Shown here piece by piece: positions 2,251 to 61,748 of a stretch of DNA of 64,000 nt. The DNA is from Aureococcus anophagefferens. Its lineage: Eukaryota; Sar; Pelagophyceae; Pelagomonadales; Pelagomonadaceae. Each line of letters begins with the position of its first letter. The stretch's first letter is position 1. The position numbers were made by a program, and so were the translations under genes. The DNA lies in the NCBI RefSeq assembly GCF_000186865.1, contig NW_008705564.1:212483-276482 (forward strand), in the 5' to 3' direction. The notes beneath the pieces are model-generated. The model was not told the DNA's origin. It saw only the letters and a program-made list of their open reading frames with translations, and did not search any database.

Positions 2251-4596
2251 ATGGCGCCGCGCCCTGTGCCGCGCCCTGCGCGCCGCCTGGCCTGCCTGTT
2301 GCTGGCGGCGCTCGCGCTCGTCGCTGCCACAGAACCCGAGCAGCCGCCGCCCCTCGCGAGCGACGCGACGACGACGAGCGCTGCGCCGCGCGACGACGAG
2401 CCGCAGCCACCTCCTGGCGATGCCGCCGCCGCCGGCGACGCCGCGCCGCCCGACGCCGCGGCGCCGCCGCCGGAGGCGGACCCGGCCGCCGCCGAGGGCG
2501 CGGAATCCGTCGCCGCCGACGCCGCCGAGGGCGAGGCGCCGGCCGCGGAGGCCGCGCCCGCCGCGGACGCCGCGCCCGCCGCGCCGGCCGCGCCCGTCAT
2601 GGTGCCGGACCTCGAGGACGGCGAGGACGTCGTCGAGAAGAAGAAGAAGGCCAAGGTCATCAACTACGCGTCCATGGACGCCGGCGCCGTCGTCCTCGAG
2701 CAGAGCGAGCACAGCAAGGGCTTCCACAAGCTGCTCCTCGACGACAAGGACAAGTACGGCATCACGGAGTGCTCCGAGAAGAAGATGGTCGTCATCGGCC
2801 TCTCCGAGGACATCCAGATGCGCGAGCTCATCCTGTGCCAGTACGAGAAGTACAGCTCCGGCGTGCGCGACTTCGACGTGCTCGGGTCGCAGGCGTTCCC
2901 GACGAAGGAGTGGCTCCACCTCGGCAACTTCACCGCCAAGTACGGCGTCCGCGAGCAGAACTTCACCATGGCCGAGTTCAAGTACGTGCGCTACCTGAAG
3001 CTGCGCTTCCTCACGCACCACGGCGACGAGGCGTCCTGCACCGTGTCGCAGATCAAGGTCCACGGCGTCGCGGTCGGGGCGGGAAAAGCGTGATTCAAGT
3101 GCGCTTCAACATGAGTGGTCCGCGCGCGCGCGTTCCGGAAAAAAGCATCCTCGCGTCGAGAGCGCTCCGAGAGATGATCGCTCGTCCAAAAATGAGCCGA
3201 AACGAGTGGAAAACGACCGAGAGACGAGCCTCCAAAGTTGGGAATTTCGCACTCTTTTCCCGCCCAGGTGACGGTCATGGAGGGCTTCCAGGACGACCTC
3301 CAGCGGCACCACGACGAGCTCGAGCAGCAGCAGGCGCTCATCGAGACCGACGACCTCGTGCTCCCGGAGCCGGAGGAGGTGCTCATCGTGCCGCCGCCCC
3401 CGGCGGAGCCGGCCGACGGCGGCGCGGAGGACGACGGCGCGGCCGACGCCGCCGCGGCGCCCGCGGCCAACGGCACGGACGCGGCCGCGGCCGCGGCGCC
3501 GGACGACATCGTCGCCATCGAGCCCGTGCTCCCCGCGGCGCCGGAGCACGAGGCGCGGCCCGACGACGAGGCGCGGCCCGCGCCGCCGCCGGACGCGGAC
3601 GCGGACGGCGCGCCGGCGGCGCCCGGCGGCGACGACGACGCGCCGGCGGCGCCGGGCGACGCCGGCGACGACGGCGCGGTCGCGCCGGCCGACGCGGACA
3701 CGCGGACCATGGGCAAGAAGGCGTCGGAGCGCGTCGTCGCTGTGGCCGAAAAGGTCGCGAACGCGTTCCTCGGCGCGGCGCCCGAGGAGCCGCGGGCCGC
3801 GGTGCCCAAGTTCGACGTCGGCGGCCCGCCGCCGGACGACGACGCCGCCGCGGCGCCGCCGGTCGACGACGCCGCCGACGGCGACGGCGGCGACGCGGCC
3901 GCGGCCGCGGCCGCGCCGGAGCCCACCGCGCCGCCGACGCGGCGCCCGCGGCGCCGGCCGACCGCGGCGCCGGCGGCGACAGCGCCCGCGGCGCCGGCGG
4001 CCAACGCGACGACGACGACGGCTGCCGCGCCGCCGGCCCTGAACGCGACCGCGGCGCCGCCGGCGAACGCCACGGCCGACGCGGCGCCGCCGCCGCCGCC
4101 GCCGAACGCGACCGCGGCGACGACGACGGCGGCGGCCGCCGCGACACCGACGACGACGACGGCCGTCGCCGTCGCCGGCGACGCCGCGGCCGCGGAGAAC
4201 GCGACCGCGGCCGCGCCGAACGCGACCGCGCCGGCGCCGCGCAACGGCCCCAAGTGCCACGAGGCGCTCGACTTCAAGAAGTTCAAGGCGCAGATGAAGC
4301 TCAAGGTCCAGTCGAACACGACGCAGCTCGCCAAGGTCGCGAGCGGGTCCCAGTTCGAGAGCGTCTTCAAGACGCTCATGGACAAGATCAAGGCCTTCGA
4401 GATCAACCACGCGATCTACGAGCTCTACCTGGGCCACCTCCAGGCGTGCTACGCCGCCCAGGTCGACCGCCTCGAGCGCAAGGTCGACGACGGCCTCGCG
4501 GCGCTCCGCGCGGAGCTCGCGGACGTCCGCGCCGCGCCGCGGCGCGGCTTCCGCTTCCCCTGGCAGCGGCGGAGGACCGAGCCGCCGCGACGATAA
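2251..4596 (+). CDS. SUN-domain (SLP1/SUN-like) membrane protein
   Basis: Two exons, 2251-3066 and 3268-4596, give 714 aa; the intron between them is an introner (family B). The start at 2251 gives an N-terminal signal sequence (ARRLACLLLAALALVAA). Residues 145-275 form a SUN domain with the family hallmarks NYASMDAGA, KYGITECSEKK, SSGVRDFDVLGS, FPTKEWLHLGNF and the terminal SCTVSQIKVHG, which splices in frame to VTVMEGFQ. A long Ala/Asp/Pro-rich low-complexity region follows. The C-terminal block (FESVFKTLMDKIKAFEIN...ELYLGHLQ) matches the coiled region of SLP1-type SUN proteins, and a basic tail ends the protein. The family acts at the ER/nuclear envelope, bridging membranes or assisting folding of membrane proteins. 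Being a SUN protein is secure; the exact subgroup is inferred. Confidence 0.88.
3067..3267 (+). mobile_element. Introner B1 (intron of SUN-domain gene)
   Basis: 201-nt GT-AG phase-0 intron made of target copy gtcgcggt (3067-3074) plus a 193-nt element; the second target copy gtgacggt (6/8 identical) begins exon 2. Terminal inverted repeats read GGGCGGGAAAAG at the left and CTTTTCCCGCCCAG at the right. The internal core CGTCCAAAAATGAGCCGAA is shared with all A and B copies. The donor GT lies in the target copy; the acceptor AG is the last two bases of the element. Confidence 0.93.
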
Positions 4597-4623
4597 AAAT
4601 GAGCGAACCCAAAAGACCCCGGC

Positions 4624-6300: not shown

Positions 6301-6488
6301 TCTCTTTCCGCGGGCGCCCGCGGACTCGGACGCGACTTTGGCCAGCGCGAACTGCCGACTCGCGGGGCCTATCGCGCAGTGTGACGTTAGGCGGGGGGCA
6401 ACGACGGCATCTTCGCCACAGTGACCGCGAGTCGAGCTGGCGACGAGGTGAGAAGCCAAGCGGCGCCTCTCCGACGCAGCGAAGTAAG

Positions 6489-8609
6489 ATGACGGTCGCC
6501 GTGATCCTCGTGGCCAGCGTCGACACGTGCCTCGAGGGCGAGCTCCTCGACGCCGGCGCCGAGTACAGCCACCTCCACGGGTTGCCCAAGGCGCTGCTGC
6601 CCATCACGGGGGGCAAGCGCGTGCTGGACTACTGGTGGGGCGCCATCGAGGGCCAGCGGCAGATCAGCGACGTCTACCTCGTGACGAACGCGAAGCAGTT
6701 CAAGCACTTCGAGCGCTGGGCGACGTCGCGCGGCATCCCCGCGTCCAAGGTCATCAACGACGGGTCGACGATGCGGTGCACGTCGCTCGGCGCCGCGCGC
6801 GACCTGCTGCTCGCGCTGACGCGCGCGGGCTCCTTCGGCGACAAGGGCCTGGACCAGGACGTCATGGTCATCGCGGGCGATTCCCTCTTCCACCGCGACT
6901 TCGACCTCCACTCCGTCGTCACGGAGCGCCACGTGGAAGCGGGTCAATCTTTAGCGGTCACGTACCGCCTCGGCGCGGACGAGGATGCGTCGACGCGGGG
7001 CATCGCCGAGGTCGACGCGTCGACGCGCCAGGTGTTGCGCTTCGTCGAGAAGCCGTCGCCCGGCGCCACGGCGTCGCGCGACGCGTGCCCGCTCTTCTAC
7101 ATTCTGAAGCCCGACCTCGTCGCTTTGCTCCCGGCGTTCGTCGAGGAGCACGACCGCGACGCGAAGCCGAGCCTCGGCGGCTTCATGGCCTGGGCCATCA
7201 ACGACAAGGGGTCCAAGGTCTACTCCATGCGCATGCCCGGCGTCTTCCGGCTCATCGGCGACGCGGGCCTCCAGGAGTATTTGGATTTGGTCGAGCACTT
7301 CGAGCGAATCGACGCGCCGAGCTGGTCCACGGCGGGCGGCGGCAAGCACACGGTCAAGGCCCACGCGCGCGTCGGCCTCTTCGGGAACCCGAGCGACGGC
7401 TACCACGGGGCGACGATCGCGCTGACCATCGCGAACTTTTGGGCGTCGGCGACGATCGCGCCGTCCGAGCGTCTGTGCCTCGTGCCCCACCCCCTCTTCG
7501 ACCCCTGCGACTTCGGGTCCCTCGCGGACCTCCACTTCATCTCGCGGCGCGAGGGCTACCAGGGCGGCATGCGGCTCCTCCAGGCGGCCTGCAAGCGCTT
7601 CTTCGAGTACTGCGCCGCGCACGGCGTCGCGCTTCCGAAGCGCAACTTCACGCTGTCCTACGAGACGAACGTGCCGCGCCAGGTCGGCCTCGCGGGGTCG
7701 TCGGCCATCGTCACGGCGGCCATCAAGGCGATGATCGCCTTCTTCTCCCTCGACGAGTCGCACGTGCCCGCGCCCGTGCTGCCGAACCTCGTGCTGTCGA
7801 TCGAGGCGGAATTGGGCATCAACGCGGGCCTCCAGGACCGCGTCGTCCAGGCCTACGAGGGCCTCGTGGCCATGGACTTCGACAAGGCGCACTTCGACGC
7901 CCACGGCTTCGGCGTCTACGAGCGGCTGCCGCCGCACCAGCTCCACGCGGCGCCGCCCCGCGTGGACATCGACCGCCGGTCCGGGACGTCCCGACCAAAC
8001 TTTTGAAATGCTCTCGCTCGGTCACATCGAAGTCGATTCGGCGGATTTTTGGATGAATCGATGGCTCTCAGCGAGTTCTCGAAGCACGGCCGAAGAGTGA
8101 CCGTTCAATTACGTGCACATTGAAGTCGGGTTGAAGATTTGGGTTCCGCGCAGGCGCTGCCGCTACTGTGGCTCGCGTACTGCGGCGAACCGTCCGACTC
8201 GGGCGCGATCCACAGCGACGTGAAGCAGCGGTGGCACGCGGGCGACCCCGTCGCCGTCGCCGGCATGGAGAAGATCGCCGACGTCGCGAAGCGGGCCAAG
8301 GTGGCCATCGCGCTGGGCGACGCGACGGAGTGCAAGAAGCTCATGGCCGAGAACTTCTCGCTGCGGCGCGCGCTGTTCGGCGACGCGGTCCTGGGCCGCA
8401 CGAACCTGCAGCTCATCGACATCGCGGCGAAGCACGGCGGCGTCGCCAAGTTCCCGGGCTCGGGGGGCGCCGTCGTCGGGACCTGCGACGAGGGCCAGCT
8501 CGACGCGATCCGCAAGGCCTACGAGGCCGAGTCCTTCGTCTTCGTCGTGCTCAAGCCCCACTTCCCCGCGGCGTCCCCGGGCGCGGCCCTCGTCGAGGCG
8601 GCGAACTAA
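6489..8609 (+). CDS. Nucleotidyltransferase-glucuronokinase fusion
   Basis: Two exons, 6489-7949 and 8154-8609, give 638 aa; the intron is introner A1. Residues 1-280 are a sugar-phosphate nucleotidyltransferase domain (LHGLPKALLPITGGKRVLDYW, then VMVIAGDSLFHRDFD). Residues 300-638 are a GHMP kinase of the glucuronokinase type: GLFGNPSDGYHGATIAL, the ATP loop VGLAGSSAIVTAAIKAM, INAGLQDRVVQAYEGLV, and after splicing ALPLLWLAYCGEPSDSG and KFPGSGGAVVGT. Glucuronokinase phosphorylates glucuronate at C1, and the partner activity would convert a sugar-1-phosphate to a nucleotide sugar, so a two-step salvage enzyme towards UDP-glucuronate is a reasonable inference. Splicing at the GC donor 7950 rejoins the YERLPPHQLHA/ALPLLWLAY region exactly as the family requires. 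Confidence 0.88.
7950..8153 (-). mobile_element. Introner A1 (intron of nucleotidyltransferase-glucuronokinase gene)
   Basis: 204-nt GC-AG phase-0 intron: target copy gcgccgcc (7950-7957) plus element 7958-8153; exon 2 starts with the matching copy gcgctgcc (7/8). The core is present in reverse orientation (ttcggcggatttttgga). The left end (ccgcgtggacatcgacc) differs from intact copies largely by T-to-C and A-to-G type changes, so this looks like an older copy drifting towards the local GC content. Confidence 0.88.
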
Positions 8610-11070: not shown

Positions 11071-11212
11071 GACGAAGCTCGCGGCGCCCGCGCTCGGCGG
11101 CGGCGCCGCGACGGTCGCGGGCGCCGAGCGCGCGGCGGGGCCCCTGCTCGCCGCCCTCGGAGACGGCGGGCCCGGCGCGGTGGCGGTCCTCGTGCTCCTC
11201 GCCGCGGTGCTC

Positions 11213-12305
11213 GACGGGCCCGGCCCGCGACGCGCGCGCGGCCCGGCTCGGCGCCGAGCGCCGCGGCCGACGACGACTGCTTCGGCGCGAAGATCTGGGA
11301 CCACTCGAGCGCGTCGGCGCGGTCCTGCGCGTCGCGCTGCGCGGCGCGGACGACGTCGTGACCGTCGACGGGCCCGGCCCGCGACGCGCGCGCGGCCCGG
11401 CTCGGCGCCGAGCGCCGCGGCCGACGACGACTGCTTCGGCGCGAAGATCTGGGACCACTCGAGCGCGTCGGCGCGGTCCTGCGCGTCGCGCTGCGCGGCG
11501 CGGACGACGTCGTGACCGTCGACGGGCCCGGCCCGCGACGCGCGCGCGGCCCGGCTCGGCGCCGAGCGCGACCCCGACGACGACTCCTTCCGCGCGAAGA
11601 TCTGGGGCGACTCGAGCGCGTCGGCGGCGCGGTCCTGCGCGTCGCGCTGCTGCGCGGCGCGCACGACGTCGTGCCCGTCGACGGGCCCGGCCCGCGACGC
11701 GCGCGCGGCCCCGGCGCAGCGCCGCGCCGCGGCCGGGTTCGCCGCGGACGCGTCGCGTGGCTCCGACGCCGGGACCCGCCGGGACCGGCCGCCGTCGCCG
11801 CGCTCGCGCTCGCGCGCGCCGGCGGCGTCCTCGGCGCCGGGCTTCCGCGCGCCGCGCGCCGCCGCGCGCCGCTCGGCGCCGAGCGCGACCCCGACGACGA
11901 CTGCTTCGGCGCGAAGATGCTGGGGCGACTCGAGCGCGTCGGCGGCGCGGTCCTGCGCGTCGCGCTGCTGCGCGGCGCGCACGACGTCGTGCCCGTCGAC
12001 GGGCCCGGCCCGCGACGCGCGCGCGGCCCCGGCGCAGCGCCGCGCCGCGGCCGGGTTCGCCGCGGACGCGTCGCGTGGCTCCGACGCCGGGACCCGCCGG
12101 GACCGGCCGCCGTCGCCGCGCTCGCGCTCGCGCGCGCCGGCGGCGTCCTCGGCGCCGGGCTTCCGCGCGCCGCGCGCCGCCGCGCGCCGCTCGGCGCCGA
12201 GCGCGACCCCGACGACGACTGCTTCGGCGCGAAGATGCTGGGGCGACTCGAGCGCGTCGGCGCGGTCCTGCGCGTCGCGCTGCGCGGCGCGGACGACGTC
12301 GTCGA
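11213..12305. repeat. GC-rich tandem array with 154-, 159- and 318-bp periods
   Basis: The marker gacgggcccggcccgcgac recurs at about 11213, 11367, 11521, 11680 and 11998, i.e. spacings of 154, 154, 159 and 318 bp, with a second 318-bp-type unit ending near 12305. Each unit carries cgacgacgactgcttcggc and ctcgagcgcgtcggcg. The two 318-bp units are nearly identical over their length, so the last duplication was recent. All frames on both strands are open through much of the array, so coding potential cannot be judged by ORF length. The array and its flanks (11071-12441) hold no gene I can name. Confidence 0.85.
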
Positions 12306-12441
12306 CGGCTTCGCGCCGACGGAGCGCGTCGCGGCGTGCGACCGCGACCGCCGGCCGACCGCCACGCGGTCCGCGGCCTCACATGAGCCCTCCCGCGCGT
12401 TCTCCCCACATTCCCCTAATGCTTGCTTGTTTAACCCCTGC

Positions 12442-20246: not shown

Positions 20247-22241
20247 TTAGAGTAAGTCGCCGTCCTCGAGCGCGACCGCGCGCGCGCCGGGCCGCGGAGG
20301 CCGCTTCGCGTCCGCGAGCGCGGCGGCCGCGGCCGCGAAGGCCAGCGCCTGGGCCGTCGACGCGGCGAGGACGGCGGCGCGCGCGGGCCACAACAGCCAC
20401 CAGGCGAGGCCCGCGGGGAAGCTCGCGACCCAGGCCGCGTCGCGCGCGTAGTCTCGCGCGAGACCCACGGGCGGTTTCAGGAGATGCCACGCGACCCAGG
20501 CCTCGACGGGGCTCAGCAGAACCACCCACACCACCACGTCGGAGTGGACCCGGAGCGCCACGGGCGCGGCCTCGCAGGCCATGAGCCACCGGCTCGCCGC
20601 GCGAAACGCCGCCTTGAACGCCCGGAGGCTCCGGGGCTTCGCGACGTCGCGCCAATAGGCGTAGCTCCGGAGCGCCGTCGGCTCGAAGAGGCGCCAGACG
20701 AGGAAGAGGCATCGCACGCCGACGGCCTGGAGCTCGCCGCCGATCTGGCGCGCCTGGTTGAGCGGCGGGAAGACGACGGCGTCGTAGAGCTGCTCGACGG
20801 TGACGTTCCGTCGCTCGTAGAGCGTCGCGTTCGCGTCGCGCGTCGCGTTGAAGAGGCACAGGCCGACGTAGGACCCGACGCCCGTGCGCTTGAGCCAGTT
20901 CCAGTCCCGGACGATTTGGCCCCGGCGCTTCTCGGCGTAGCGCGGCACGTGCTTGACGGGGTCGTCCCAGACGTCGGAGAAGAAGCGCTCCCAGCCGCTC
21001 CGCTTCCACTGGACCTTGCAGTGGCCCAGGAGCACGGTGAAGAGCGCCGTGTGGTTCAAGTCGCCGTCCGCCGTGTAGGCCGGGTGGCCGTCGAGCTGGG
21101 TCTTGATGGTCTTCTTCCGGTCCTTGGCCCACTGCTCCCGGTCTTTGGGGACGCGCTCCTTCGAGTTGTTCAGGTCCTTGGCCTTGCGGTCGCGCTCCGC
21201 CTCGAGGATGGCCTTCTCCGTGTCGTTGACGAGTGCCAGGTCCTCGAGCGTCTGGGCGAGGAGCGCCGCGCTCTTGGCGCGGCTCTTGATGGCCTTGACG
21301 ATGGGCTCGCCGAGGTGCTCGTACGCGGCGAACCCTAACTGGTCCTCGAGGCCCGCGATCTCGCCCGCGATGGCGCGGTGCGTCTCCAGCACCATGGCCA
21401 GCGCCGCCCGCTCAGCGTCGAGCTGGGCGTCGAGGCGCCGGTGCTCCCGGCGCTGGTAGTCGATCTTCTTGTTGACGAAGTCCATCTGCTTGTGCGCGAC
21501 GTCGACCTGCTTGTGGAGCTCCTTCGCGGCTCGAACCCGCTCGACGACGGTGGCGTTGGAGCCGTTGGCGACCTTGAACTGCGGGAAGTCGAAGGTCCAG
21601 GGCTTCTCGCCCGTCATCTCCTCGACGATCGCCGTCATGGTCTCGTTCCGGATCCTCCGGTACTCGGCCTCGGCGTCCTCGTAGAAGTCGCCGATGGCGT
21701 GGCGGCACGCGAAGAGCAGGAAGAGCAGGAAGGGCAGGGCGTAGCGCCGCCGGGGCCGCGGGACCCGGGCGGCGACGGCGAGGCCGTAGCCCAGGCACTT
21801 GCCGACGGCCCAGAGCACCGCGAAGAACGCGGCGACGTGGCGGTAGCCGCACTCGATGAGGAGCCAGGGCAGGATCTTTTCGGCGAAGATCTGGAAGTCG
21901 CTCTTCGGCGCCTCGGGCTCCTCCTCGGGGATGACGTTGCCGAAGGCGTCGTAGCGCGCGGCCTTGCGCGTCGCGTTCGTCGTCGCGTTCGTCGTCGCGT
22001 TCGCGTCGTCGTCGAGGGCTCCCGCGTGCGCGAGGTACTCGGGCGTCAATTCGCGCGAGTAGGTGCCGTCGGCGTTCTTCTGGAGGCCGGGACCGGGCGT
22101 GAAGGTCACCTCCGTCGCCAGCGCCGGCAGCAGCAAGAGCACGGCGACGCGGGCTGCTGGCGTGAAAATCACCTCCGTCGCCAGCGCCGGCAGCAGCAAG
22201 AGCGCGGCGACGCGGGCTGCCCCCATGCCGCTGCTTGCCAA
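20247..22241 (-). CDS. Multi-pass membrane protein with coiled coil and duplicated signal sequence
   Basis: Single exon, 664 aa from the ATG ending at 22241 (a second Met at 22226). The N-terminus is unusual: ARVAALLLLPALATEVIFTP is followed 21 residues later by a near copy, a duplicated signal peptide. Then come an Asn-Ala-Thr glycosylation cluster, hydrophobic spans around residues 120-170, a long coiled coil (about 230-375, e.g. KQVDVAHKQMDFVNKKIDYQ) and two or three C-terminal hydrophobic spans (VVVWVVLLSPVEAWVAWHLL). Several glycosylation sites in the central part suggest a secretory-pathway membrane. No family recognised. It ends 2 bp from the S10 stop and starts 73 bp from the kinesin start. 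Confidence 0.72.
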   Translation of the reverse strand: MASSGMGAARVAALLLLPALATEVIFTPAARVAVLLLLPALATEVTFTPGPGLQKNADGTYSRELTPEYLAHAGALDDDANATTNATTNATRKAARYDAFGNVIPEEEPEAPKSDFQIFAEKILPWLLIECGYRHVAAFFAVLWAVGKCLGYGLAVAARVPRPRRRYALPFLLFLLFACRHAIGDFYEDAEAEYRRIRNETMTAIVEEMTGEKPWTFDFPQFKVANGSNATVVERVRAAKELHKQVDVAHKQMDFVNKKIDYQRREHRRLDAQLDAERAALAMVLETHRAIAGEIAGLEDQLGFAAYEHLGEPIVKAIKSRAKSAALLAQTLEDLALVNDTEKAILEAERDRKAKDLNNSKERVPKDREQWAKDRKKTIKTQLDGHPAYTADGDLNHTALFTVLLGHCKVQWKRSGWERFFSDVWDDPVKHVPRYAEKRRGQIVRDWNWLKRTGVGSYVGLCLFNATRDANATLYERRNVTVEQLYDAVVFPPLNQARQIGGELQAVGVRCLFLVWRLFEPTALRSYAYWRDVAKPRSLRAFKAAFRAASRWLMACEAAPVALRVHSDVVVWVVLLSPVEAWVAWHLLKPPVGLARDYARDAAWVASFPAGLAWWLLWPARAAVLAASTAQALAFAAAAAALADAKRPPRPGARAVALEDGDLL
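22097..22222. repeat. 63-bp in-frame tandem duplication (signal peptide)
   Basis: Two tandem copies with period 63 bp (21 codons), beginning gcgtgaaggtcacctccgtc and gcgtgaaaatcacctccgtc, differ at only a few positions. They encode the repeated hydrophobic leader of the gene at 20247-22241. The first encoded copy supplies the cleavable hydrophobic core; the second follows the likely cleavage site. Confidence 0.9.
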
Positions 22242-22314
22242 TTCAAGATGGCGGCAATTCCGGCACCTTGAACCTATACAAAAACGCTGCCCCGACGCGG
22301 TTGGCCTCGAGACG

Positions 22315-24769
22315 ATGGAGACCGTGTCCGTCTTCGCGCGCGTGCGGCCGCTCAGCGCGCGGGAGGCGCGCGAGGGCGAGGGCCGCGCCGTCTACGCGCA
22401 GGCGGCGCACGGCGCCGTGTCCGTGGCGTCGGCCTACGGCGGCGACGGCGACCGCGCCTTCCGCTTCGAGCGCGTCTTCGACGAGGACGCGAGCCAGGGC
22501 GACGTCTTCGCGGCGTGCTGCGCGCCCCTCGTCGCCTGCGCCCTCGAGGGCACGAACGCGAGCATCCTGACCTACGGCCAGACGGGCACGGGCAAGACGC
22601 ACACCATGCTCGGCCACGACGTCTGGCGGCTCGCGGCCGAGTGCGCGCGCGCGGCCGCGGACCGGACGAGCGACGGCGAGCGCGGGCTCATCCCGCGCGC
22701 CATGGCCTGCCTCTTCGGCGCGCTGAAGCGGTCGCGGGCGCGCGCCTGCGTCAAGGTGTCCTACGTCGAGATCCACAACGAGCGCGTCGTCGACCTGCTG
22801 CGGCCGCCGGACGGCGACGGCGAGCCCGCGGCGCTGGACATCCGCGACGACGCCGAGCGCGGCATGATCGCGCTGGGCGCCGAGGAGGTCGAGGTCGGCG
22901 CCGAGGACCAGGTGCTCGACGTGCTCTGGTTCGGCGCGGAGAACCGCGCCATGTGCGCGACGGACCTCAACGAGCGGAGCTCGCGGTCGCACACGATCTT
23001 CGCCGTGGCCATCGAGCGCCTCGACCGCGACGGCCGCCTGCTCCGGTCGAAGCTGAACCTCGTGGACCTCGCCGGGTCCGAGAAGTGGCGGTCCTACGAG
23101 CTCAAGGCCTTCTCGGCCGCGCGCTGTGTGCAAATCAACCACTGGTTTGGGACGTCCCGACCAAACTTTGAAATTCTCTAGCTCGGTCAAATCGAAGTCG
23201 ATTCGGCTGATTTTTGGACGGATCGATTGCTCTCGTCGAGTTCTCGAAGCACGGCGGAAGTTCTTGCGTCAAAGAATTCGAATACGCTCACATTGAAGTC
23301 GAGTTGAAGATTTGATTGCACACAGGCCGCGCGCATCAAGGAGCTCACGTCCATCAACCAGAGCCTCTCCGCGCTCGCGAACGTCGTCGGCGCGCTCATC
23401 GCGGGCAAGGCCCACGTGCCCTACCGCGCGTCCAAGCTCACGCGCTTACTGCAGGACTCGCTCGGCGGCACGTGCAAGGCCGCGTTCGTCGCGACGATGT
23501 CGCCGTGCGCGTCCGCCGCCGGGCGGGAAACACAAATCTTCAACCCGACTTCAATGTGAGAGTATTCGATAGTTTCGACGCGAGTTATTCTGTCGTGCTT
23601 CGAGAACTCGACGAGCGCCATCGATTCGTCCAAGAATGAGCCAAAACGACGTCGATGTGACCGAGCTCGAGAATTTCAAAGTTTGGCCCCGACGTCCCAA
23701 ACCACCGGTTGATGTCCGGCGCAGGTCCGCCGTCGAGGAGACGCTGTCGACGCTCCACTTCGCGCGGCGGGCCATGAAGGTGCGCGTCTTCGCCGCGCCG
23801 AACGTCGAGGCGGCGGACACGGGCGGCGGCGGCGGCGGCGGCGCGCGCGAGCTGCGGAACGCGCTCGCCGTCGCGCGCCAGGAGATCGCGCGGCTCGAGA
23901 AGGTCGTCCGGCAGCAGCGCCGCGGCGTCGCCGCGCCCGACGCGCCGTCCGACGCCCCGGCGACGGCGCGCGCCCGGGACCTCGCGGAGCGGCGCGCGGC
24001 GCTCGCGAAGGAGTGGGCCGCGCGCGGCGCGTCCGCCGCGTCCGCCGTGGACCGCCGCGACTGGCTCGAGCGCTACCACGCGTGGCTCCGGGACCTGCCG
24101 CCGCTGGCCCCGGCGGACATGGCCGGCGCGTCCGTGGACCTGCGGGAGCGCGTCGCGCTCATGGAGGCCTCCGTGCTCGTCCAGAGCGAGGAGCTGGCCA
24201 CCGCGACCGCGTCCTTCGACGCGGAGCGGAAGGCTTTGGCGAGGGAGCGCGACGACGCGCGCGCGGCCCTGCGGCGCGCGCGCGACGGGGCGCTCGTCGC
24301 CGAGGAGCCCAAGGCGACGACGGCGACGCGGCGGCCGTCGGCGGCGGCGAAGACCGCCGCGAAGGTGCCCTCCGCGAAGGCCGCCGCGAAGCCCGCGGCG
24401 GCGGCGCGGCGCGCGTCCGCGGCCGCGAACCGCAAGGCCGCGCCCGCGCCCGCGCCCGCCGCGAAGCCCCGGGCCGTCATCGACGAGGACGCCCTCGCCG
24501 TGCTCCGGTCCGTCGGCGTCGACGCGTCGACGCTCGACAAGCTCGTCCGCGGCGCCGCCGCGAACGGCGCGAACGGCGCCGCCGACCCGCCGCCGCCGCC
24601 GCCCGAGGAGAACCGGGCGGCGAACGCGGCGCCGGCGAAGAAGAAGAAGCGGCCCGTCGTCGCGCGGCACCTCGACGCGGCGACGGGCGTCTACTACTAC
24701 TACGACCGCAAGACCAAGGAGACGACGTGGGAGCCGCCGCCGAACTGGGACCCGGCGAACGGGACGTAA
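22315..24769 (+). CDS. Kinesin motor protein with C-terminal WW-like domain
   Basis: Exons 22315-23115, 23326-23510 and 23725-24769 give 676 aa; both introns are introners (A2 and A6). The motor is N-terminal: [16 protein letters not shown]-loop [17 protein letters not shown], switch [12 protein letters not shown], switch [10 protein letters not shown], then across splice junctions [53 protein letters not shown] and [10 protein letters not shown] coiled-coil segment follows (residues about 370-520), then an Ala/Lys-rich linker. The last ~35 residues ([27 protein letters not shown]) are a WW-like domain in which the first Trp appears replaced. Microtubule motor; cargo unknown. Motor assignment is secure; the WW call is good but atypical. 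Confidence 0.93.
23116..23325 (-). mobile_element. Introner A2 (kinesin intron 1)
   Basis: 210-nt GC-AG phase-0 intron: target copy gccgcgcg (23116-23123), element 23124-23325, identical target copy gccgcgcg opening exon 2 (8/8). Terminal inverted repeats ctgtgtgcaa and ttgcacacag are perfect over 10 bp. The core is in reverse orientation (ttcggctgatttttggacg). Only the GC donor at the target copy restores the kinesin motif [11 protein letters not shown]. Confidence 0.95.
23511..23724 (+). mobile_element. Introner A6 (kinesin intron 2)
   Basis: 214-nt GT-AG phase-2 intron: target copy gtccgccg (23511-23518), element 23519-23724, identical copy gtccgccg at exon 3 (8/8). Forward-orientation core cgtccaagaatgagccaaa; internal string caaatcttcaacccgacttc as in other A copies. 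The outer ends (ccgggcgggaaacac; tccggcgcag) are diverged from the consensus. It lies 185 nt downstream of A2, so the exon between them is 185 nt. Confidence 0.92.
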
Positions 24770-38083: not shown

Positions 38084-38088
38084 CTTCA

Positions 38089-49232: not shown

Positions 49233-51311
49233 ATGTGCGGCATCGCCGCGTTGGTCTACGGCGACGACGCCGCCGCGCCGGCGGATGCGACGCGCGCCGT
49301 CCTCGAGTTCGCCACGCGCTGCGGCCTCGAGCGCCGCGGGCCCGACGGCCTCGACGCCGCCGTGCCGGCGCCGCGCGTGGCGCTCGCGGCGTCGGTGCTG
49401 CGCATGCGCCGCACGGACGACTGGCGCCAGCCCGTCGTCGACGGCCGCGGCAACGCGCTCGCGTGGAACGGCGAGTGGTTCGACGGCGACGGCGCGCCGC
49501 CGGCCGGCGCGGGCGACACCGCGGCGGTCGCAAAAATGCTCGGCGCGGCCGTCGCGGGCCTCGCGGACGCGGCGGACGCGGCGGCGGCCATGGCGGCGGT
49601 CCTCGCGGGCCGCGTCCGCGGGCCCTACGCGGTCGCGTTCTACGCCGCGGACGCCGGCGCGCTGCTGTTCTGCCGGGACCCGCTGGGCCGCCGGTCGCTC
49701 GCGTTCGGCCCCGCCGAGCGCGCCTTCGGCGTCGCGTCCGCCGTGCCGCGCGGCGCCGCGGGCTGGGCCGAGGTGCCGACGGACGGCGTGCGGTCGCGGC
49801 GGGGTTTGGAGGCGCCGTGGCCGCGCGCGGGCTTCTACGACGCCGTCGCGTGGCCTCCCGCGAACATCGCGTTCGACCCGCCGCCGCGCGCGGCCGCCGC
49901 GGCGCGGCTCCGGGCCGCGCTCTCCGGCGCCGTGGCGCGGCGCGTCGCCGGCCACGACGACGTCGCCGTGCTCTTCAGCGGCGGCCTGGATTCGGCGGTG
50001 CTCGCGCGGCTCCAGGGCAGCACAAGAGAGCGAAATTCCCAACTTCAAAGGCTCCGATCTCGGCCATTTTCCACTCGTTTCGGCTGATTTTTGGACGAGC
50101 GATCATCTCTCGGAACGCTCTCGAAGCGTGGATGTGTTTTTTGTAACGCGCGCGCGCGGAACACTCACGTTGAAGCGACGTTGAATCACTCTTGTCCTGC
50201 CCAGGCGCGGCTCGCGCACGACCACGTCGACGCGCGCGCGCGCATCGACCTCGTCAACGTCGCCTTCGGCGAGACGGGCCGCGCCGAGGCCGACGCGGCG
50301 CCGGACCGCGCCGCGGGCCGCGCGACGGCGCGCGAGCTGCGCGCGGCCTGCCCCGGCCGCGAGTTCCGGCTCGTCGAGGTTTCCGTGTCGGCGGCGGATC
50401 TCGCGCGCGACGCGCGGACGATCGCGGCGCTCGCGGCGCCCTGCGGCGACCACATGTCCTTCAACCTCGCCGCGGCGCTCTTCTTCGGCGCCGCGGGCGC
50501 CGGCGTGCGGCGCGACGAGGACGCCGGCGGCGACGGCGGCGGCGGCGGCGGCCTCCGCTACGGCGCGCGGCCGCCGCCGCCGGCCGCGCCGGCGCCGCCC
50601 GCCGCCGCGCGGCCGTGCGCCGCGCCGGGCTGCGCCTACGAGGCCCACGCGCGCTGCGCCGCGGCCCAGTGCGGCGTCTGCTGCCGCCGCCGGTGCCGGG
50701 CCGACGGCGCGGCGTGCCGCGCGCACCCGCCGCGGAGGACCCGGGAGGAGAGGGCCGCGGCGGCCCGGCCCCCGGCGCCGCCGCCGCGCGCGCCGTCGCC
50801 GCCCCGGGGCCCGGCGGCGACGTCGCGCGCGCGGTGCCTCCTGCTCGGCATGGGCGCGGACGAGCTCCTCGCGGGCTACGCGCGGCACCGGACGGCCTAC
50901 GCGCGCGGCGGCGCGCCGGCGCTCGCCGCGGAGCTCGACGGCGACCTCGTGCGCCTCGCGTCGCGGAACCTGGGCCGCGACGACCGCGTCGTGTCGCACC
51001 ACGGCCGCGAGGCGCGGTTCCCGTACCTCGACGAGGCCGTGCTCGCCGTCGTCCGCGGGGAGCTCGGGCCCGCCGTCGCGGACCTCGACGAGCCGCCGGG
51101 CGTCGGCGCGAAGCGGGTGCTGCGGGACGTCGCGGCGGACCTCGGGCTGCCGCGCGTCGCGACGCTCGTGAAGCGCGCGTTGCAGTTCGGCACGCGCATC
51201 GCGCCCTTCTCCAACCGGCTCTGCTTCGGCTCGAACCGGAAGGGCGACGGCACGGCGGCCTTCGACGTCGATCTGCTGCTGGCGCGCATCGAGGGTGTAG
51301 GTGTCAGCTAG
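49233..51311 (+). CDS. ASNSD1: Asparagine synthetase domain-containing protein (ASNSD1-like)
   Basis: Exons 49233-50003 and 50205-51311 give 625 aa; the intron is introner B3. N-terminal class II glutaminase domain: MCGIAALVYG with Cys2 as nucleophile, LERRGPDGLDAAV, ALAWNGEWFDG, RGPYAVAFYAADAGALLFCR and DPLGRRSLAF. The synthetase half has the ATP PP-loop VLFSGGLDSAVLARLAHDHV spelled across the splice junction, CGDHMSFNLAAALFFGAAG, LLLGMGADELLAGYARHR and HHGREARFPYLDEAVLAVV. Between the last blocks lies a Cys-rich insert (PCAAPGCAYEAHARC, QCGVCCRRRC, CRAHPP) that may bind zinc. The architecture is that of ASNSD1; biochemical activity in the family is not well established. Confidence 0.9.
50004..50204 (-). 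mobile_element. Introner B3 (ASNSD1-like gene intron)
   Basis: 201-nt GC-AG phase-0 intron: target copy gcgcggct (50004-50011), element 50012-50204, identical copy gcgcggct at exon 2 (8/8). The B element is inverted relative to the gene (ggacgagcgatcatctctcg on the plus strand). Ends ccagggcagcacaagag and cttgtcctgcccag. It sits just after the PP-loop SGGLDSAVL, a position where imprecise splicing would destroy the enzyme. Confidence 0.95.
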
Positions 51312-52040: not shown

Positions 52041-52790
52041 ATGCTACTCCACATGCTCACCGCTGTCGCCCTCCTCTCCGCCGCCCACCAGGTCCAGGGC
52101 ATCAAGGTCACGGCCTCGGCGTCGAACCTTGGCGCGCCGGCGTCGGACGCCGAGGCCGCGGCCTCGCTCAAGGACCTCCTCCGCTCGTCGACACAGGACA
52201 TCCTCGCGTCGCGCCGTCTCTCAGACCACGACGGCCAAGACCACGGCGACCAGACGAGGTCCGGCGGCGGTGACACCAGCGGCGGCAGCAGCACCAGGAG
52301 TTTTCAGACGTTTCCGCGTAACATATGGATCTTCTGGAAGCAAGGTTTGATTGAGAATGAGGCCGCGGTACGCTGTATTCAAAGTTGGAGAACACGCAAT
52401 CCAAATTGGAATCAGATACGACGCTACCGACTTTTATTGCAGGAAAGGACGCCACCTTGATCCAATCAATTAAAAGCAAGCAATCATCGTCCGATCTGGC
52501 ACGAGTAGCGTTGTTGGAGAGACTTGGGGGAGCGTACGCCGACGTGGACGTATACAACGTTCTCTCGCTGGACGACTGGCTTCCACAGTACGTCGAACCG
52601 ACCGGTACATTACTCATTTTCACCAATGTAAAAGATCCACATTACATGAATGTACTTTTGGAATCTATTCGAAAAATCCGCCCTGTGAATTCCACCGCAG
52701 ATTCTACCAATCCATGTAGATCCGATCATTCAACGAATCATGCACCAAGCGCAGCGTGACTTACGATACCGTCAGACGACTACTACAACT
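52041..52790 (+). pseudogene. Broken GT32-like (DXD) sugar transferase
   Basis: ATG 52041 opens a signal peptide (MLLHMLTAVALLSAAHQVQG). After a low-complexity linker comes FPRNIWIFWKQGLIENEAAV, RCIQSWRTRNPNWN, the conserved entry of the glycosyltransferase sugar-binding DXD family. The frame then ends within 20 codons, but the family resumes in another frame as KSKQSSSDLARVALLERLGG, AYADVDVYNVLSLDDWL, with the DXD inside YADVDV. A shift near 52410-52420 therefore interrupts it; no clear intron explains the shift. Beyond about 52680 the remaining similarity is split between frames with stops. AT-richer than its surroundings. A decayed gene is likely; an assembly error or unusual intron cannot be excluded. 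Confidence 0.6.
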
Positions 52791-53110
52791 TCGATGTTGG
52801 ACAACAAATTCAGAAAAAAGGTCTCCTACGACTAGAGTTGAGAAGGTCGTCAAGATGCGGTATCACCTTTCACCATCAGACTCGAATCTCAACACTTTCA
52901 CACTGCGCTGGTCGTGAAGAAGTGGCCCCCGCCGCCGCCGAAGCCGCCGCCGCCCGGACGCGCCGCCCGCCTAGCCGGGCGCAACTCAATAAAGAGACCA
53001 AGCCTCTTCAACCTTGGGCACGGCGACGAAGTTTCATGGTGGTAACACATGGCCGCGGCGACCTATCTCGGCTCTCGTCCCTGAACACGGGGCTGGAGGC
53101 GCTCGGAAGG
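52791..53110. other. Non-coding stretch, nothing recognised
   Basis: No frame on either strand shows family resemblance or the local codon preference. It lies between the broken sugar transferase and the stop of the Sec39/NBAS-like gene and may contain that gene's 3'UTR. Confidence 0.4.
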
Positions 53111-56100
53111 TTAGCCCGCGGGGTCCGCGTAGGCGGCGAGCGCGGCGGCGGCGGCGTCGCGGAGCTCGGGCCACGCGTCCCAGCCCCGCGCCCCGGCGCG
53201 GCCGTCGTCGAGGAGCCGCGCGGCGAGCGCGAGGCCCGCGCGCGTCGTCGCGAGGTGCGGCGGCGTGCCCGCGAACGCGTGGGCCGCGCGCGCGACCGCG
53301 AGGAAGTCGCCGTGGTGGCGCCGCGCGGCGGCGGCGAGGACGACGCACGCGACCTTGAAGGGGCGGCTCTCGACGAGCGGCGCGCCGGCCGCCGCCGCGG
53401 GCGCCGCGGCGAGCGCCGCGTACACGCGGCCGTCGCCGCCGGCGTCCATGGCCGCGAGCGCCGCGCCGCTCCGCAGCAGGTCGTCGCCGAGGTCGCCGCC
53501 GGCGCCCGGCGCCGCGGCCCAGGCCGCGGCGAGGTCGCGCGCCGCGGCCCAGCGCACGGACGCGTGCGCCGCGCGCAGGCCCGCTTTGAAGCGCGCGGCG
53601 CCGGGAGGCAGCGCCGCGTAGAGCCGCGCCTCGCCGACGCGGTCGGGCCGCCCGCCCCGCGGCGGCCCGCGCGTCGCCGCGTCGCCGAGCGTCGCGCCGT
53701 CGCCCCGGAGCGCGTGGAGCAGCTGGAGCCAGCAGAGCCCGAGGGGCTCGCCGTCGACGTCGACGTTGACGCCTGTGCCGAAACCAACCACTGGTTTGGG
53801 TGGTCCTGACCAAACTTGAGAACTCTCTAGCTCGGTCACATCGACGTCGATTCGGCTGATTTTTGGACGGATCGATGGCTCTCGTCGAGTTCTCGAAGCA
53901 CAGCAGAAAGCCTTGCGTCGAAACGGTCGCATACGCGCACATTGAAGTCGGGTTGAAGATTTGATTCCCACACAGGTCGACGCCCCGGAGCGCCGCGACG
54001 GCCTCCGCGGCCGACGACGCGCCCCGGCGGTCCGCCCGGCGCCGCTCGTCCTCGTCGCCCGGCGGCTCGCGCGCGTGCGCCAGGTCCAGCAGGGACCAGA
54101 GCAGGCGCGCCTTCTTCCGCAGGTCTCCCGGCGGGCCGGCGAGCGCGGCCGCGAGCAGGTCCGCGAAGAGCGCCTTGACGCCTGGGCGGGAACCTCGCGA
54201 TTCAACGTCGCTTCAACGCGGGTGTGCCGCGCGCGCGCGTTCCGAACACATCGTCCACGCGTCGAGAGCGCTTCGAGAGATGATCGCTCGTCCAAGAATC
54301 AGCCAAAACGAGCGGAAAACGACCGAGAGAAGAGCCTTTGAAGTCGGGGAACGTCGCGCCCTTTTCCCGCCCCGTTTCACGCCCTCGACCGTCGCGAGGT
54401 CGCCGGCGGCCACGTGTCGCGCGCGCTCCGCGCCCCAGCCCCGGGCGACGAGCTCGCTCACGGCGAAGAAGCAGGGGTGGGCCGGGGCCTCCGCGGGCGG
54501 AGGCGTCGCGGCGGCGTCGTCGGCGACCGCGGGCGCCGCCGCCGCGCCTCCCGCGCCGCGCGCGCGCGCGAGCCCGTCGAGGACGCCCAGCGCGCGCAGC
54601 CGCTCCGCCGACGAGTCCTCGTCGTCGCCGTCGCGGACGAGCTCCCCGCGCCGCGCGAGGGCGCCGGCGAGCGCGCCCGCGAAGCCCGCGGCGCCCTCCG
54701 GGTCGCCGTCGGCGCGGTCGCCGAGCGCCGCCGCGGCCGCGAGCGCGGCGTCCGCGGCGTCGCGGCTCAGCGAGCGGTCGCCGTCCTCCCCGTCCCCGAA
54801 GAGGGGCCCGAGCACGAGCGCCGCCGCCGCGTTGGCGAAGGCCTCGCGCGTCGCGGCCTCGGCGGCGCCGCGCGCCTCGTCGGAGCCGCCCGCGGCGCCG
54901 ACGTCCGTGAGCAGCAGGAACGCCTGGAGCACGACGTCGGCGCGCGCCCCGCCGGCGGCGAGCGCGTCCGCCGCCGCGCGCGCGGCGTCGACGAGCGCCG
55001 GGTCGCCGCCCGCGGTGACCGCCATCCTCGCCGCGTCGCGCGTCGCCTTCGCCGCGTCGGTCCCGAACCCCGCCGCGAGGCCCAGCGCCTCGAGCGACGA
55101 CCGGATGGACCGCAGCCGCGGCTCGAGGGGCGCGCCGACGCGGCCCGCGAGCCCCGCGGCGAGGCGCCCGAGGGGCTCGAGGCTCTCGCCCCCAAAGTTC
55201 TCGAAGAACGCGGCCGCGAGCGCGTCGACGGCCGCGCGCTCGTCCGTCGTCGCCGCGCGCGCGAAGAGCGGCGCCGCCCGCTCCGCGGCGGCGCGCTCGA
55301 GGTCGCCCGCGTCGCCCTCGAGGGCGTGGAAGGCCTCGCGCCGCGCCGCGCAGGCGTAGACCTCCGCGGGGGAGACGGCGCCGGCGAACTTCGCGGCGAT
55401 CCGCGCGAGGAGCGGCGCCGTGTCCTTCGTCGCGATGGCGCGCAGGCTCGCCAGCGCCGCGTCGCGCCGCTTCTCCTCCTGCGTCGGCCGCCGCGCCCCC
55501 CGGGCGCGGTCGTCCTCGGGCGTCGCCGCCTCGTCCTCGCCGTCGTCGACGCGCCGCGGCGCGCCGGCGACGATTCCGCCGCAGAGCGGCTTCGCGTCGA
55601 CGGACCGCCCGAGCGCCTTCGTCGCGCGCGCGAAGCGCCGCAGCAGCAAGCCGTGCTCCTGGGCGACGCGGCAGAAGGTCGCGTCGGCCTGGCCGCAGTG
55701 GGCGACGACGAGGCGGCAGAGCAGGTCGAGCGGCCGCGCGTCCGATTCCTTCCGGTAGCGGCCCTTGAGATACTTCAGGAGCACGGCGCCCGGCGGCGGC
55801 GGCAGCCAGGCGCCCCCCGCCTCCGGGCGATCGTCGTCGCCGTCGTCGTCGCTCTCCTTGAGGACGAGCAGCGCCGCGTAGGCCGACGTCGCGGGCGGGT
55901 CGCCGCCGGCGGGCGCGCACGCGACCGCGTCCTCCGCGGCGGGCGCCCGCGCGGGCAGCAGCAGGGACGCGAGCGCGTCGACGTTTCCGCCGGCGCGCGG
56001 CGCGTCGAAGAAGTGGTCGAGGTGGCGCCGCGCGAGGCTCGCGGGGCTCGCCTTCCGGAGCCGCGCGTCGGACGCGCCTGTGTGGAATTCAAATCTTCAA

Positions 56101-59100
56101 CCCGACTTCAATGTGAGCGTATGCGACAGTTTCGACGCAATTGCTTCGGCTGCGCTTCGAGAACTCGACGAGAGCAATCGATTCGTCCAAAAATCAGCCG
56201 AATCGACTTCGATGTGATCGAGCGAGAGAATTCTGAAGTTTGGTCAGGACCACCCAAACCAGTGGTTGAATTCCACACAGCGTCGCGCCGTCGTCGTAGC
56301 GCCGGCTCGCGGCGACGGCGGCCTCGAAGGCGGCGCCGTTGCCGCTCGCCGCCGCGCGCACGAGGGCCTCGCTCCGGTAGACGGGCTCGGCCTCGAAGCG
56401 CGCGACGTCGACGTCGAGCGCCGGGTCCCGCGCGGGCGCGCGCGGCGGCGGCGGCGGCGGCGGCGGCTGCTCGGGGGCGACGAGCCGCGACAGCGCGCCC
56501 TCGAAGGCCGACGCCGGCGCGGGCTCGTCGCCGCCGAAGAGGCGCGCGAGGGCCTCCTTGGGCTGGGGCGGCGCCGCGGGCTCCGGCGCCGCGGGCGCCG
56601 CGGCGCCGAGCAGCGCCGCCCGCAGCTTCGACGCGGCGTCGAGCTCGCCGGCCTTGCGCTCGAGGTCCGCGAGCTGGGCCGCGCAGCGCGCCGCGAGGGC
56701 CGGGTCGCCCGTCGTCGCGCGCACGCGGCCGTAGTACGCCGCCGCGACGCGTCCCGCGACGGCGCGGCGGTCGCCCGCGTCGTCGGGCGGCGGCGCCGGC
56801 GCCGGCGCCGGCGGCGCGGCAAAGTCGGCGTCGCCCGCGTGGCCCACGCACCAGGCCAGGGCCGTGTCGAGGTCCGCGTTCGCCGTCGCGCGGCACGCGC
56901 GCCGCGCGCCGTGCTCGACGAAGCCGAGCGCGACGAGCTCCGCGACGAGCGCCTCGTCGGGCGCGACGACGACCGCGGCCGCCGCCGCGGGCGCGAACCT
57001 CGTCGCGAGGGCCGTCGCCGCGTCGTCGAACATGGCGCCGCAGCGCCCGACGAACGCCGCGTCCGCGCGCTCGACGACGAGGTACGCGAGCGCCGCGCCG
57101 GCCCGCGCGCGCCGCTCGAGCGCGTCGGGCGCGTCCGCCGCGCGAAAGATCTCGTCGCGCGCGCGGTCCGCGGCGTCGCCCGCGGGGCGCGGCGCCCCGA
57201 GGAACGCGCCCGCGGCGTCGAACAACGCCATGGCCTTGGCGCCCGCCGGGAGCTGCGCCGCCGCGACGGCCAGGGCCTCGCCCCCGAAGCCCGCGCCCAG
57301 CGCCTCCGTCGCCGCGTCCAGGGCGAGGTCGCACACCACGTCGCGGCACCGCACCGCCGCGGCGTCGCCCGCGCCGTCGCCGCGGCAGCCCGCGTCGAGC
57401 CGACCGGCCGCGCGCGCGAGCCGCGTCGCGTGCCTCGCCGCGCCGGCGCCGTCGCCGTCGGCCGCGGCGCGGCGGAAGAGCGCGAGCCGCGCGGCCGCGG
57501 CGGCGGCGACGGCGCCCGAGCCCGTCGTCGTCTCCGCCGCGAGGCGCGCCGCGCGGACGACCAACGCGTCGCCGCCGACGTCGCCGTCGCCCGCGCCCGC
57601 GTCGCCGAAGATCTCCAGGTCCTCGAGAAAGTCCGCGTCCTCGTCGTCGACGAGGGCCGCGAGGAAGCGCCCGGTGTCGTCGTCGCCGAGGTCGGCGACG
57701 GACGGCGCCGCGAGGATCTTCGCCGCGACCGCGCCGGCGACGCGCGCCGCGCGCGCCTCCTCGTCGCCCGCGCCGCCGTCGGCCGCCGCGGCGGCGAAGT
57801 CCGCGGCGTCGTCCGCGCCCGCGGCCGCCGCCGCGAGGGCGAGGCCGCGCGCCGCGCGCCGCGCGCCGCGCGCCGTCGCCGCGGCCGCGGCCCAGGCCGC
57901 GGCGGCCGCGGGGTCGTCGNNNNNNNNNNNNNNNNNNNNNNNNNNNNNNNNNNNNNNNNNNNNNNNNNNGCGGCGCGGCGCGCGCGCGAGCCGCCGCGCC
58001 AAAGGCGGCGAGGGCCGCGTCGGCGGCGGCCGCGGCGTCCGCGAGGGGCCCGCGGCGGAGCCGCTCCCGCGCGGCCGCGGCGCACGCCGCCGCGAGGCGG
58101 CCCGCGGCGCGGTCCTCCGCGCCGGCGACGGCGGCCGCGACGGCGCCGCCGTCGCCGCCGCGGAGCGCGAGCTTCGCGACGTAGGCGCAGCGGCCCGCGT
58201 CCAGGGCGGCGGACGCGTCGCGCGCGCGCCACAGCCCCGCGGCGCCCAGGCGCTCGACGGCGTCGAGCGCGGCGCGGCCGTCGACGCGCGCCTTGAGCAC
58301 GGCCAGCGCCGCGAAGCGCTCCGCGGGCCCGTCGACGTCCACCACGCCCAGGTCGTCGCTCGGCGCCGCCAGCGCGTCGAGGTCCGCGTCGTCGAGCCGC
58401 GGCGCGGCGTCCCGGAGCTTTCGCAGCGGCAGGAACAGCTTGAGGTCGCCGCGGAGCGCGCGGCAGACGTCGACCTTGGCCCGCAGGTCGTCGACGAGCG
58501 CCCAGACGCCGGGGCCCCGGGCCTCCGCGAAGGCCGCGTCGTCGTCCGCGAGGCGCTCGTGGTCGTCAAAAGTCAGGCACGCGAGCAGGTCGCCGCACAA
58601 ATTGACGTCGTTGCCGCCGTCGAAGGCCTTCGCCGCGACGTCCAACACGAAGACCGCGAGGCGCGTCTGCGACGGCGCGAGGCGCTCGGGCACGGGGATC
58701 GTGTGCGCCGACGCGCGGCAGGCCGCGAGCGCGACGCCGAAGTCGCCGCGGTCGTCGACGGCCTTGAGAGCGAGATCCGCGACGGCCGCGAGCAGCGAGT
58801 CGTCGCCGCCCTCGTCGTCTTCGGGCGGCAGGGCGAACTTGCCGCTCACGAAGGGCCCGAGCAGGCTCCGGAGCGCCGCGGCCTCGGACGCGTGGCGGCC
58901 GCCCCCCGAGCGCTCGACGAACCGCGCGGCCTCCTCGAGCTTGCTCCGCCGTGATCGCGCCTCCCACGCCGCGAGGCTCTCGAGTTCGTCGCGGAGCGCG
59001 CCCTCGTGGAGCAGCCGCGCGAGGTGCCAGGCGTCGCGGTGGAGCGGGCGCAGCGCGAGGGCGGCGGCGCCGAGCGCGTCGCGCGCGATCGCGCAGACGT

Positions 59101-59893: not shown

Positions 59894-60105
59894 GTTGTTT
59901 CGACGCCGCGCGGCGGCCGCGGCGCGTCGACCGCTTCGGCGCGCGCGACGACGATTTACGCGCGCGCGATATCGACGCGCATCGGTGCGGCGAGAAAGCT
60001 CCGGTTGTTCTTGAAGGCGTATTGAAGGCGTCTCACTTATGGATGAGCCCTTAGGGCAGCCCTCAGTGCGGCTATTCCCCCGGCGATGCGCGGTTCGGTA
60101 GGTGA

Positions 60106-61748
60106 ATGAGGCGTTCCTGGGTCGCGCTGGCCGCCGCCGCCGGCGCGTGCACGCCGGAGCCGCTGGGCGGCGGCGCCGTGCGCCTGAAAGGCGACGTCGA
60201 CGTCGCCTGCCTCGAGGCCGCCGCAGCGACCGGCGCGACGTCGCTGGCGTGGTCCGTGCCGCGGCGCGGCGGCGTCGACGCCTGGCGCCGGACCGGCGAG
60301 CGCGTCGTCGACGCGTTCCTCGCGCCGCGGCCCTGGTGGCGCGTCGCCGAGGAGCCCTTCGAGGGCCTCGCGGGCGCCGAGACCGGCGCCTTCGCGCTCG
60401 AGCTCCTCGGCGACGCGAAGCAGGTCGCGTTCCTGCGCGCCGTCGCGGCGCTCCAGTTCCCGGAGCGCTGCGGCCGCTGGCACCCGCGCCACGTCGTCCG
60501 GCTCAACCGCGCGCGCAAGTTCGCCTCCATGTTCGGAGAGATCGCGCTCGGCGGGGCAGGAAAACAGTGCTTCAAGGTCGCTTCAACATGAGTGTTCCCG
60601 CGCGCGCGCGTGCCGGAAAAAGCATCCACGCGTCGAGAGCGCTCCGAGAGATGATCGCTCGTCCAAAAATGAGCCGAAACGAGTGGAAAACGACCGAGAG
60701 AGGAGCCTCCACAAAGTTGGGAATTTCGCACCCTTTTCCTGCCCAGGCGCTGGGTCTCCTCCGCGCGTTCCACGGCGCCAGGGCCTTCGTGCTCGTCAAC
60801 GAGGACTGGCGCCTCGCGGACCCGGCGCTGTGCGCGGGAGCCGCGACGAACTTCGAGTGCGCGTTCCTTCCCCTCTCCTCGTGCCGGCCGCGCCGCGAGG
60901 GGCCGGGGCCCGAGCGCCGCGAGGACGCGCCCGGCGACGGCAACCTCACGCGCCGCGCCGCGGGGGCGCTCTACCCCTGGCTCTGGTCCGGGACGCCGCG
61001 CGCGGCCTACGCGCAGGACCGCGGCGCGCTGGAGGCGGCCGCGGAAGCGCCGGGCACGACGGGCCACGGCGCCGACGGCGATGAGACGGACCCGTTCCAG
61101 CTCTGGCGGCCCTGCGCGGACGACCCGGCCTGCCGCGCGCGCATGGGCGCGGACTGCTTCGTCGAGGCGGGCCTCCTCGCCTTCGCCCTGCGGCCGCGGC
61201 GCCGCGTGCGAGCGCGGCTCGCGGCCCGCGGCGCGGCGCCGGTCCCGGACTGGCGCGGCGACTGCGCGACGGTGCACGTGCGCCACGGCGACGTCATGCT
61301 GGACGGCTGGCTCGAGTGGCGGCCGTCGGCGGACCGCGGCGTCGAGGGCTTCCTGGGCGCCGCGGCCGCGCTGCTGGGCACGCCGACGCCGCGCGCGTTC
61401 CTCATGTCCGACGACGCGGACATGGTCGCCGACGCGGCGCGCGCCGCGGCGGGGCCGCTGGCCTACGCCAACGTCTCCCGGGGCAGCCACCGCGCGGGGC
61501 TCGGCCCGGAGGACTGGTCCGCGCTGAGCTCGGGATCCGCCGCGCTCCTCGACGTGCTCCACGAGCTCGAGCTGGCGACGCGCTGCCGCGCCTTCGTGGG
61601 CAACTGCTTCTCCCTCTTCTCCCGGTCCGTCTTCCGGACCATGTGCGTCCACCGGGGCGACTGCCCGCCCCACTACAGCGCGCGGTCGGACCTGCGCTGC
61701 TGCGGCACGTCGCACCTCCTCCAGCAGTCCCGCGCGAAGCCGCCATAA
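60106..61748 (+). CDS. Fucosyltransferase-like glycosyltransferase
   Basis: Exons 60106-60543 and 60747-61748 give 479 aa; the intron is introner B4. The start at 60106 gives a short hydrophobic leader (MRRSWVALAAAAGACTPEPL). After FPERCGRWHPRHVVRLNRAR, the splice joins KFASMFGEI to ALGLLRAFHGARAFVLVN. Conserved-looking blocks: CATVHVRHGDVMLDGWLEWR (the HVRRGD-like donor motif of alpha-1,6- and O-fucosyltransferases), RAFLMSDDADMVADAARAAA and ATRCRAFVGNCFSLFSRSVF. Paired Cys residues late in the protein (CVHRGDCPP, LRCCGTSH) fit a secretory-pathway enzyme. Substrate unknown; the fold family is likely, the exact class is not. Divergent from the Sec39/NBAS-like gene. Confidence 0.68.
60544..60746 (+). 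mobile_element. Introner B4 (fucosyltransferase-like gene intron)
   Basis: 203-nt GC-AG phase-0 intron: target copy gcgctcgg (60544-60551), element 60552-60746, second copy gcgctggg (7/8). Ends cggggcaggaaaac and ccttttcctgcccag. Forward core cgtccaaaaatgagccgaa. Close to the B consensus throughout. Confidence 0.94.

Follow-up and report, generated by a model that had tools for sequence, protein, structure and literature searches.

The stretch analysed here, hereafter the window, comprises 64,000 nucleotides of the Aureococcus anophagefferens genome (C4:212483-276482; assembly of 49.05 Mb in 86 contigs) and has a G+C content of 72%. It carries a SUN-domain gene, a nucleotidyl transferase and GHMP kinase gene, a kinesin gene (22063-24769), a sulfotransferase gene and a gene with an asparagine synthase stretch. 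A further gene, at 53111-58572, contains three junctions and a run of N; the part of it that was searched has no Pfam match. Searches of the window for tRNAs and for Rfam families (gathering score) found none. Positions 11182-12341 hold tandem duplications nested in one another, whose repeat units measure 154 and 318 bp and of which some are 100% identical. Two adjoining 63-bp direct repeats, 86% identical, lie at 22083-22208, just upstream of the kinesin motor domain. Two islands of low G+C, at 37921-39090 and 52241-52950 (down to 0.45 and 0.40), are free of introners.

The initial annotation placed eleven introns of 200-214 nt, belonging to two families of transposon-like elements, in the window. 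A search with a profile built from the window's own elements recovers them as five copies of family A and six of family B. The predicted introner introns are the following:

3067-3267, plus strand: family A, GT-AG; target copies at 3067-3074 and 3268-3275, with the element (3075-3267) between them; host a SUN-domain (Sad1_UNC) gene, whose Pfam match has the junction at its border
7950-8153, plus strand: family B, GC-AG; element 7958-8153; host a nucleotidyl transferase and GHMP kinase gene, whose Pfam matches do not include the junction
23116-23325, plus strand: family B, GC-AG; element 23124-23325; target copies 8/8 identical; within the kinesin motor domain
23511-23724, plus strand: family B, GT-AG; element 23519-23724; target copies 8/8 identical; in the same kinesin motor domain as the 23116 intron
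30979-31189, plus strand: family B, GT-AG; element 30987-31189; sulfotransferase gene
31379-31578, plus strand: family A, GC-AG; element 31387-31578; target copies 8/8 identical; same sulfotransferase gene as the 30979 intron, junction inside the Sulfotransfer_3 stretch
50004-50204, plus strand: family A, GC-AG; element in the orientation opposite to that at 3067; end placed by hand, after which the target copies are 8/8 identical; junction within the Asn_synthase match, where it separates SGGLDSAVL from ARL
53773-53983, minus strand: family B, GC-AG; element 53773-53975; putative host frame
54182-54382, minus strand: family A, GC-AG; element 54182-54374, which diverges more than any other A copy in the window; putative host frame
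56078-56288, minus strand: family B, GC-AG; element 56078-56280, CTG/CAG at both ends; putative host frame
60544-60746, plus strand: family A, GC-AG; element 60552-60746; host gene 60106-61748, without Pfam match

The eleven elements are 192-206 bp long, have inverted ends and are flanked by 8-bp target copies that are 6/8 to 8/8 identical, as had been proposed. The description of the copies as near-identical proved too strong: pairwise identity within the window is 81-93% in family A, 77-94% in family B and about 50% between the two, and the best other copy of the 3067 element, among 40 copies scored, is 94% identical. The claim of terminal inverted repeats reading CTG...CAG holds as far as the inversion is concerned, but CTG/CAG is present at both ends of only three elements (23116, 53773 and 56078), the other eight deviating from CTG at the intron's 5' side. 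A large part of the end motif (CTGGGCAGGAAA, CTGTGTGGAAAT) is common to families A and B, as is the core CGTCCAAAAATNAGCC. In certain B copies (L005, 23519) one of the ends is A-like, which suggests that a single mobilising enzyme serves both families.

A scan of the whole genome gave 1854 + 1815 = 3,669 matches to the introner core (at most one mismatch), against 1 + 1 = 2 for the reversed control. Seventeen profile matches, one of them a fragment, were found in 20 evenly spaced 10-kb tiles of contig C1. As is typical of introners, similar introns thus form families whose members are scattered over numerous genes, in unrelated positions. Runs of one strand among the core matches listed are an artefact of the listing, as minus-strand copies share that part of C1.

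A sample of copies was assembled by likeness to the 3067 element (L001-L008), by core (L009-L016) and by even spacing along C1 (L021-L040), to which the window elements were added. It comprised 50 profile matches, of which 47 were usable after removal of a duplicate of 3067 and two fragments. The element ends were set by a score rewarding target match, end likeness and CTG; GY was not scored. Target copies are at least 6/8 identical in 44 of the 47 elements, against a mean of 3.2 for shuffled pairs. Since the ends were chosen partly by target match, a fair control is to swap the 3' flanks and repeat the search: 40 such swaps gave a mean of 15.3 and a maximum of 23 out of 46, compared to 44 of 46 observed. 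The proposed duplications hence exceed chance, and terminal inverted repeats are combined with an 8-bp target duplication, as in introners. As to the claim that the elements were recently mobile, the evidence is divided: perfect target duplications in 29 of the 47 copies favor it, whereas the interiors of the 25 sampled A copies have an average pairwise identity of 90%, with a maximum of 97%, which speaks against it.

If each intron consists of one target copy and one element, as the initial annotation had it, the predicted introns read G[CT]...AG in all eleven cases (GC-AG in eight and GT-AG in three), in agreement with that anatomy. Removal of target copy and element leaves all eleven junctions crossed without a stop in the chosen frames, and in these frames retention of the intron would introduce an in-frame stop in nine cases and a frame shift in the other two. 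The longest open frame proved wrong for several genes, and other frames were used for the junction analysis. As other frames are also open in such G+C-rich sequence, an open frame by itself is weak support for a junction. Stronger support exists for four junctions, which fall inside a Pfam-matched stretch (two in the kinesin, one in the sulfotransferase and one in the asparagine synthase); the other seven rest on open frames. The spliced kinesin matches the motor domain with a Pfam E-value of 2e-94, the profile being covered from first to last position, and PDB entry 7lxr_A at 1e-64 over query residues 3-349. The asparagine synthase match reaches 2.7e-16 when spliced, against 0.0017 and 2.3e-8 for the single exons, with the junction located directly after the SGGLDS motif.

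Taken together, the eleven introns are almost certainly introners, short non-autonomous cut-and-paste DNA transposons of MITE-like type that form two related families. The sequences show that insertion doubles 8 bp of the target and that the 3' splice site is supplied by whichever element end has CAG on the strand of the gene. They place the predicted 5' splice site at the GC or GT that starts the upstream target copy; splicing out one target copy together with the element would then restore the old frame. The element serves as an intron in either orientation, and in nearly all A copies one end only has the CAG motif. Old shared introns, kept alike through gene conversion, would also produce likeness across unrelated genes, but they would account neither for the target duplications nor for the occurrence of both orientations in unrelated genes, and we give this explanation practically no weight.

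A CTG at one end only, found in 37 of the 47 elements (nine of the ten left out have it at both ends and the ends of one are unsettled), sets the intron strand independently of the target sequence. In the window, the strand so deduced is the gene strand for all eight one-sided elements. On that strand the target copy starts with G[CT] in 37 of 37 elements (22 GC, 15 GT), while GY occurs at the far end of the target in only 10 of the 37. When GY is required in the search pattern, 51 of 54 family-A places recur among the C1 matches listed. The GY-required pattern has 872 matches and a shorter core than the corresponding 903-match pattern without GY, so that the two totals are not an exact numerator and denominator, the C1 listings being the comparable ones. 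By sequence, one splice site resides in the element and the other comes from the duplicated target, with the frame restored. A transposase that prefers targets starting with GY, splicing having no part in the choice, would also yield GY on one strand in all 37 elements. With near-identical inverted ends, however, such a preference predicts GY at both ends of the target, contrary to the 37/37 and 10/37 seen; the unequal base at position 2 of the ends leaves it a narrow way out, and it is very improbable. Near-identical inverted ends give an enzyme no evident means of distinguishing one side of the target from the other, which makes splicing the likely filter: it probably decides which insertion sites are kept, and the one-sided bias suggests that insertions at non-GY targets would mostly be lost. 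To note, 35 of 45 introns (L022, among the 45, has unsettled ends) contain a branch-site-like TTGA within their final 50 nt, against a shuffled mean of 7.1. This TTGA was not retained as a branch site, being equally possible as a transposase site and present in just 4 of 11 sense A introns.

This kind of system is already known in A. anophagefferens. Huff, Zilberman and Roy are said to have described in 2016 the introners of this species and of Micromonas pusilla as short non-autonomous DNA transposons, which reportedly carry one splice site, borrow the other from the duplicated target and insert between nucleosomes. By sequence, the window elements have the same anatomy (inverted ends, 8-bp duplications, a carried 3' and a borrowed 5' splice site) and show no difference from it, which supports the earlier assignment of the window to such a lineage. 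The characteristic introner length in A. anophagefferens (56 Mb, G+C 67.4%) is about 210 bp, and Pelagomonas (32.4 Mb, G+C 63.6%) also has introns near 210 bp (PMC9481584). The introners of Aureococcus sp. TARA_AOS_82_MAG_00129 resemble those of the window by their 8-bp target duplications, but the example given there contains the two splice sites itself and lengthens the transcript by 12 bp, whereas the window elements would add none, judging by their sequence (Gozashti 2022, PMC9860276). The inverted-repeat introners of Amoebophrya likewise have inverted ends able to form a hairpin and differ by direct repeats of 3-5 nt and very diverse splice sites (PMC7789003).

The distances between neighbouring elements were collected by hand below 600 bp, a small and non-random set of 12 based on sequence positions only: 59 bp, 173-206 bp (four), 332-375 bp (five) and 514-536 bp (two). 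Their best period is 161 (simulated p 0.0003), or 167 (p 0.0002) without the 59-bp pair. Three of the 12 (193, 197 and 206 bp) come from the window. The exons between its three introner pairs, 23326-23510 (185 bp), 31190-31378 (189 bp) and 53984-54181 (198 bp), are about the length of one nucleosome.

A mobilising transposon with introner-like ends was not found in searches of the genome for the hAT, KDZ, MULE and P-like families. The hAT search returned four matches of 22-24 bits, all barely above the cut-off (loci C1, C6, C8 and C13). At C1 and C6, the two loci where ends were examined, no introner-like end pair spans the match: the inverted-end pairs that do so (8 and 26, judged on at most the best 12 listed) are chance-like and unlike introner ends. 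Two short end-motif matches in the C1 hAT stretch, 586 bp apart and also found in C13, were discarded, with a target duplication of 1/8 and an end likeness of 9/14. A 5.4-kb stretch with a hAT dimerisation match (L018/L019) is 99.2% identical on C1 and C13, and adjoins a frame of proline-threonine repeats. MULE gave no genome match, its control being positive in 4 of 14 genomes, and KDZ none either, its control itself also giving none. The single P-element-like RNase H match, C25:178372-178818 (L046; E 1.4e-9, three TAG inside; 1.2 kb read), can be considered as a mobiliser as a lead only.

A consistent mismatch between the two ends of family A is the new detail here. A pattern requiring CTG at the left end and allowing any base at position 2 of the right end has 903 matches and its mirror 435, counts that include a few doubled places. 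Both ends match at position 2 in at most 16 of about 1,322 copies, seven of them of regular length. Of the 903 matches, 682 have an A as this base on the 5' side of the intron. With the ends paired, the mismatch would face the 3' splice-site A. Folding was done on 44 of the 47 sampled elements. In the 25 folded A introns, the end stem has a mean probability of 0.83, and the 3' splice-site A is unpaired with a probability of 0.92 as found, against 0.08 with T.

It is possible, though doubtful, that selection maintains this mismatch, in addition to the introner reading. If position 2 on the 5' side of the intron were T, the ends would pair and the 3' splice-site AG would be buried, while any other base would leave the A unpaired. 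The rarity of copies with T at both ends and the folding values argue for this idea, as do the presence of the mismatch in A copies whichever way they lie in the gene (14 and 11) and the fact that the mismatched base does not follow kinship, nearest neighbours agreeing in 5 of 25 cases against a shuffled mean of 8.5. Conversely, family B tolerates T in 7 of its 19 folded introns, with the A paired in five of those seven, one in the kinesin gene, and in two A introns that lack T the A is nevertheless mostly paired (unpaired 0.15 in L038 and 0.30 in 54182). Polarity, moreover, partly tracks relatedness (20/25, shuffled mean 12.2, p 0.002), so that source elements with unequal ends fit as well, and the A/G alternation (C/T in B) could reflect one CpG site before and after decay. 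A further proposal, to which we grant a little less likelihood still, is that splicing shaped the transposon ends: the mismatch would face the 3' splice-site A, the hairpin would join the splice sites without burying the AG, and the CTG-retaining end would fix the intron-capable strand. No report of the family-A end mismatch was found in the literature searched, which excluded the text of the main 2016 introner paper, and no priority is claimed.

That new introns arise from introners is well documented, and the one-sided GY counts tie the borrowed 5' splice site of introners to splicing. GC-AG introns amount to 39.6% of those of A. anophagefferens (G+C 69.5%) and their origin is called an enigma (PMC3033335). 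The GC targets described here, which make up 8 of the 11 in the window and 22 of the 37 in the sample, could explain this proportion, an explanation that later work may already have given. Were the family-A end mismatch under selection, it would be a case of splicing shaping the ends of a transposon.
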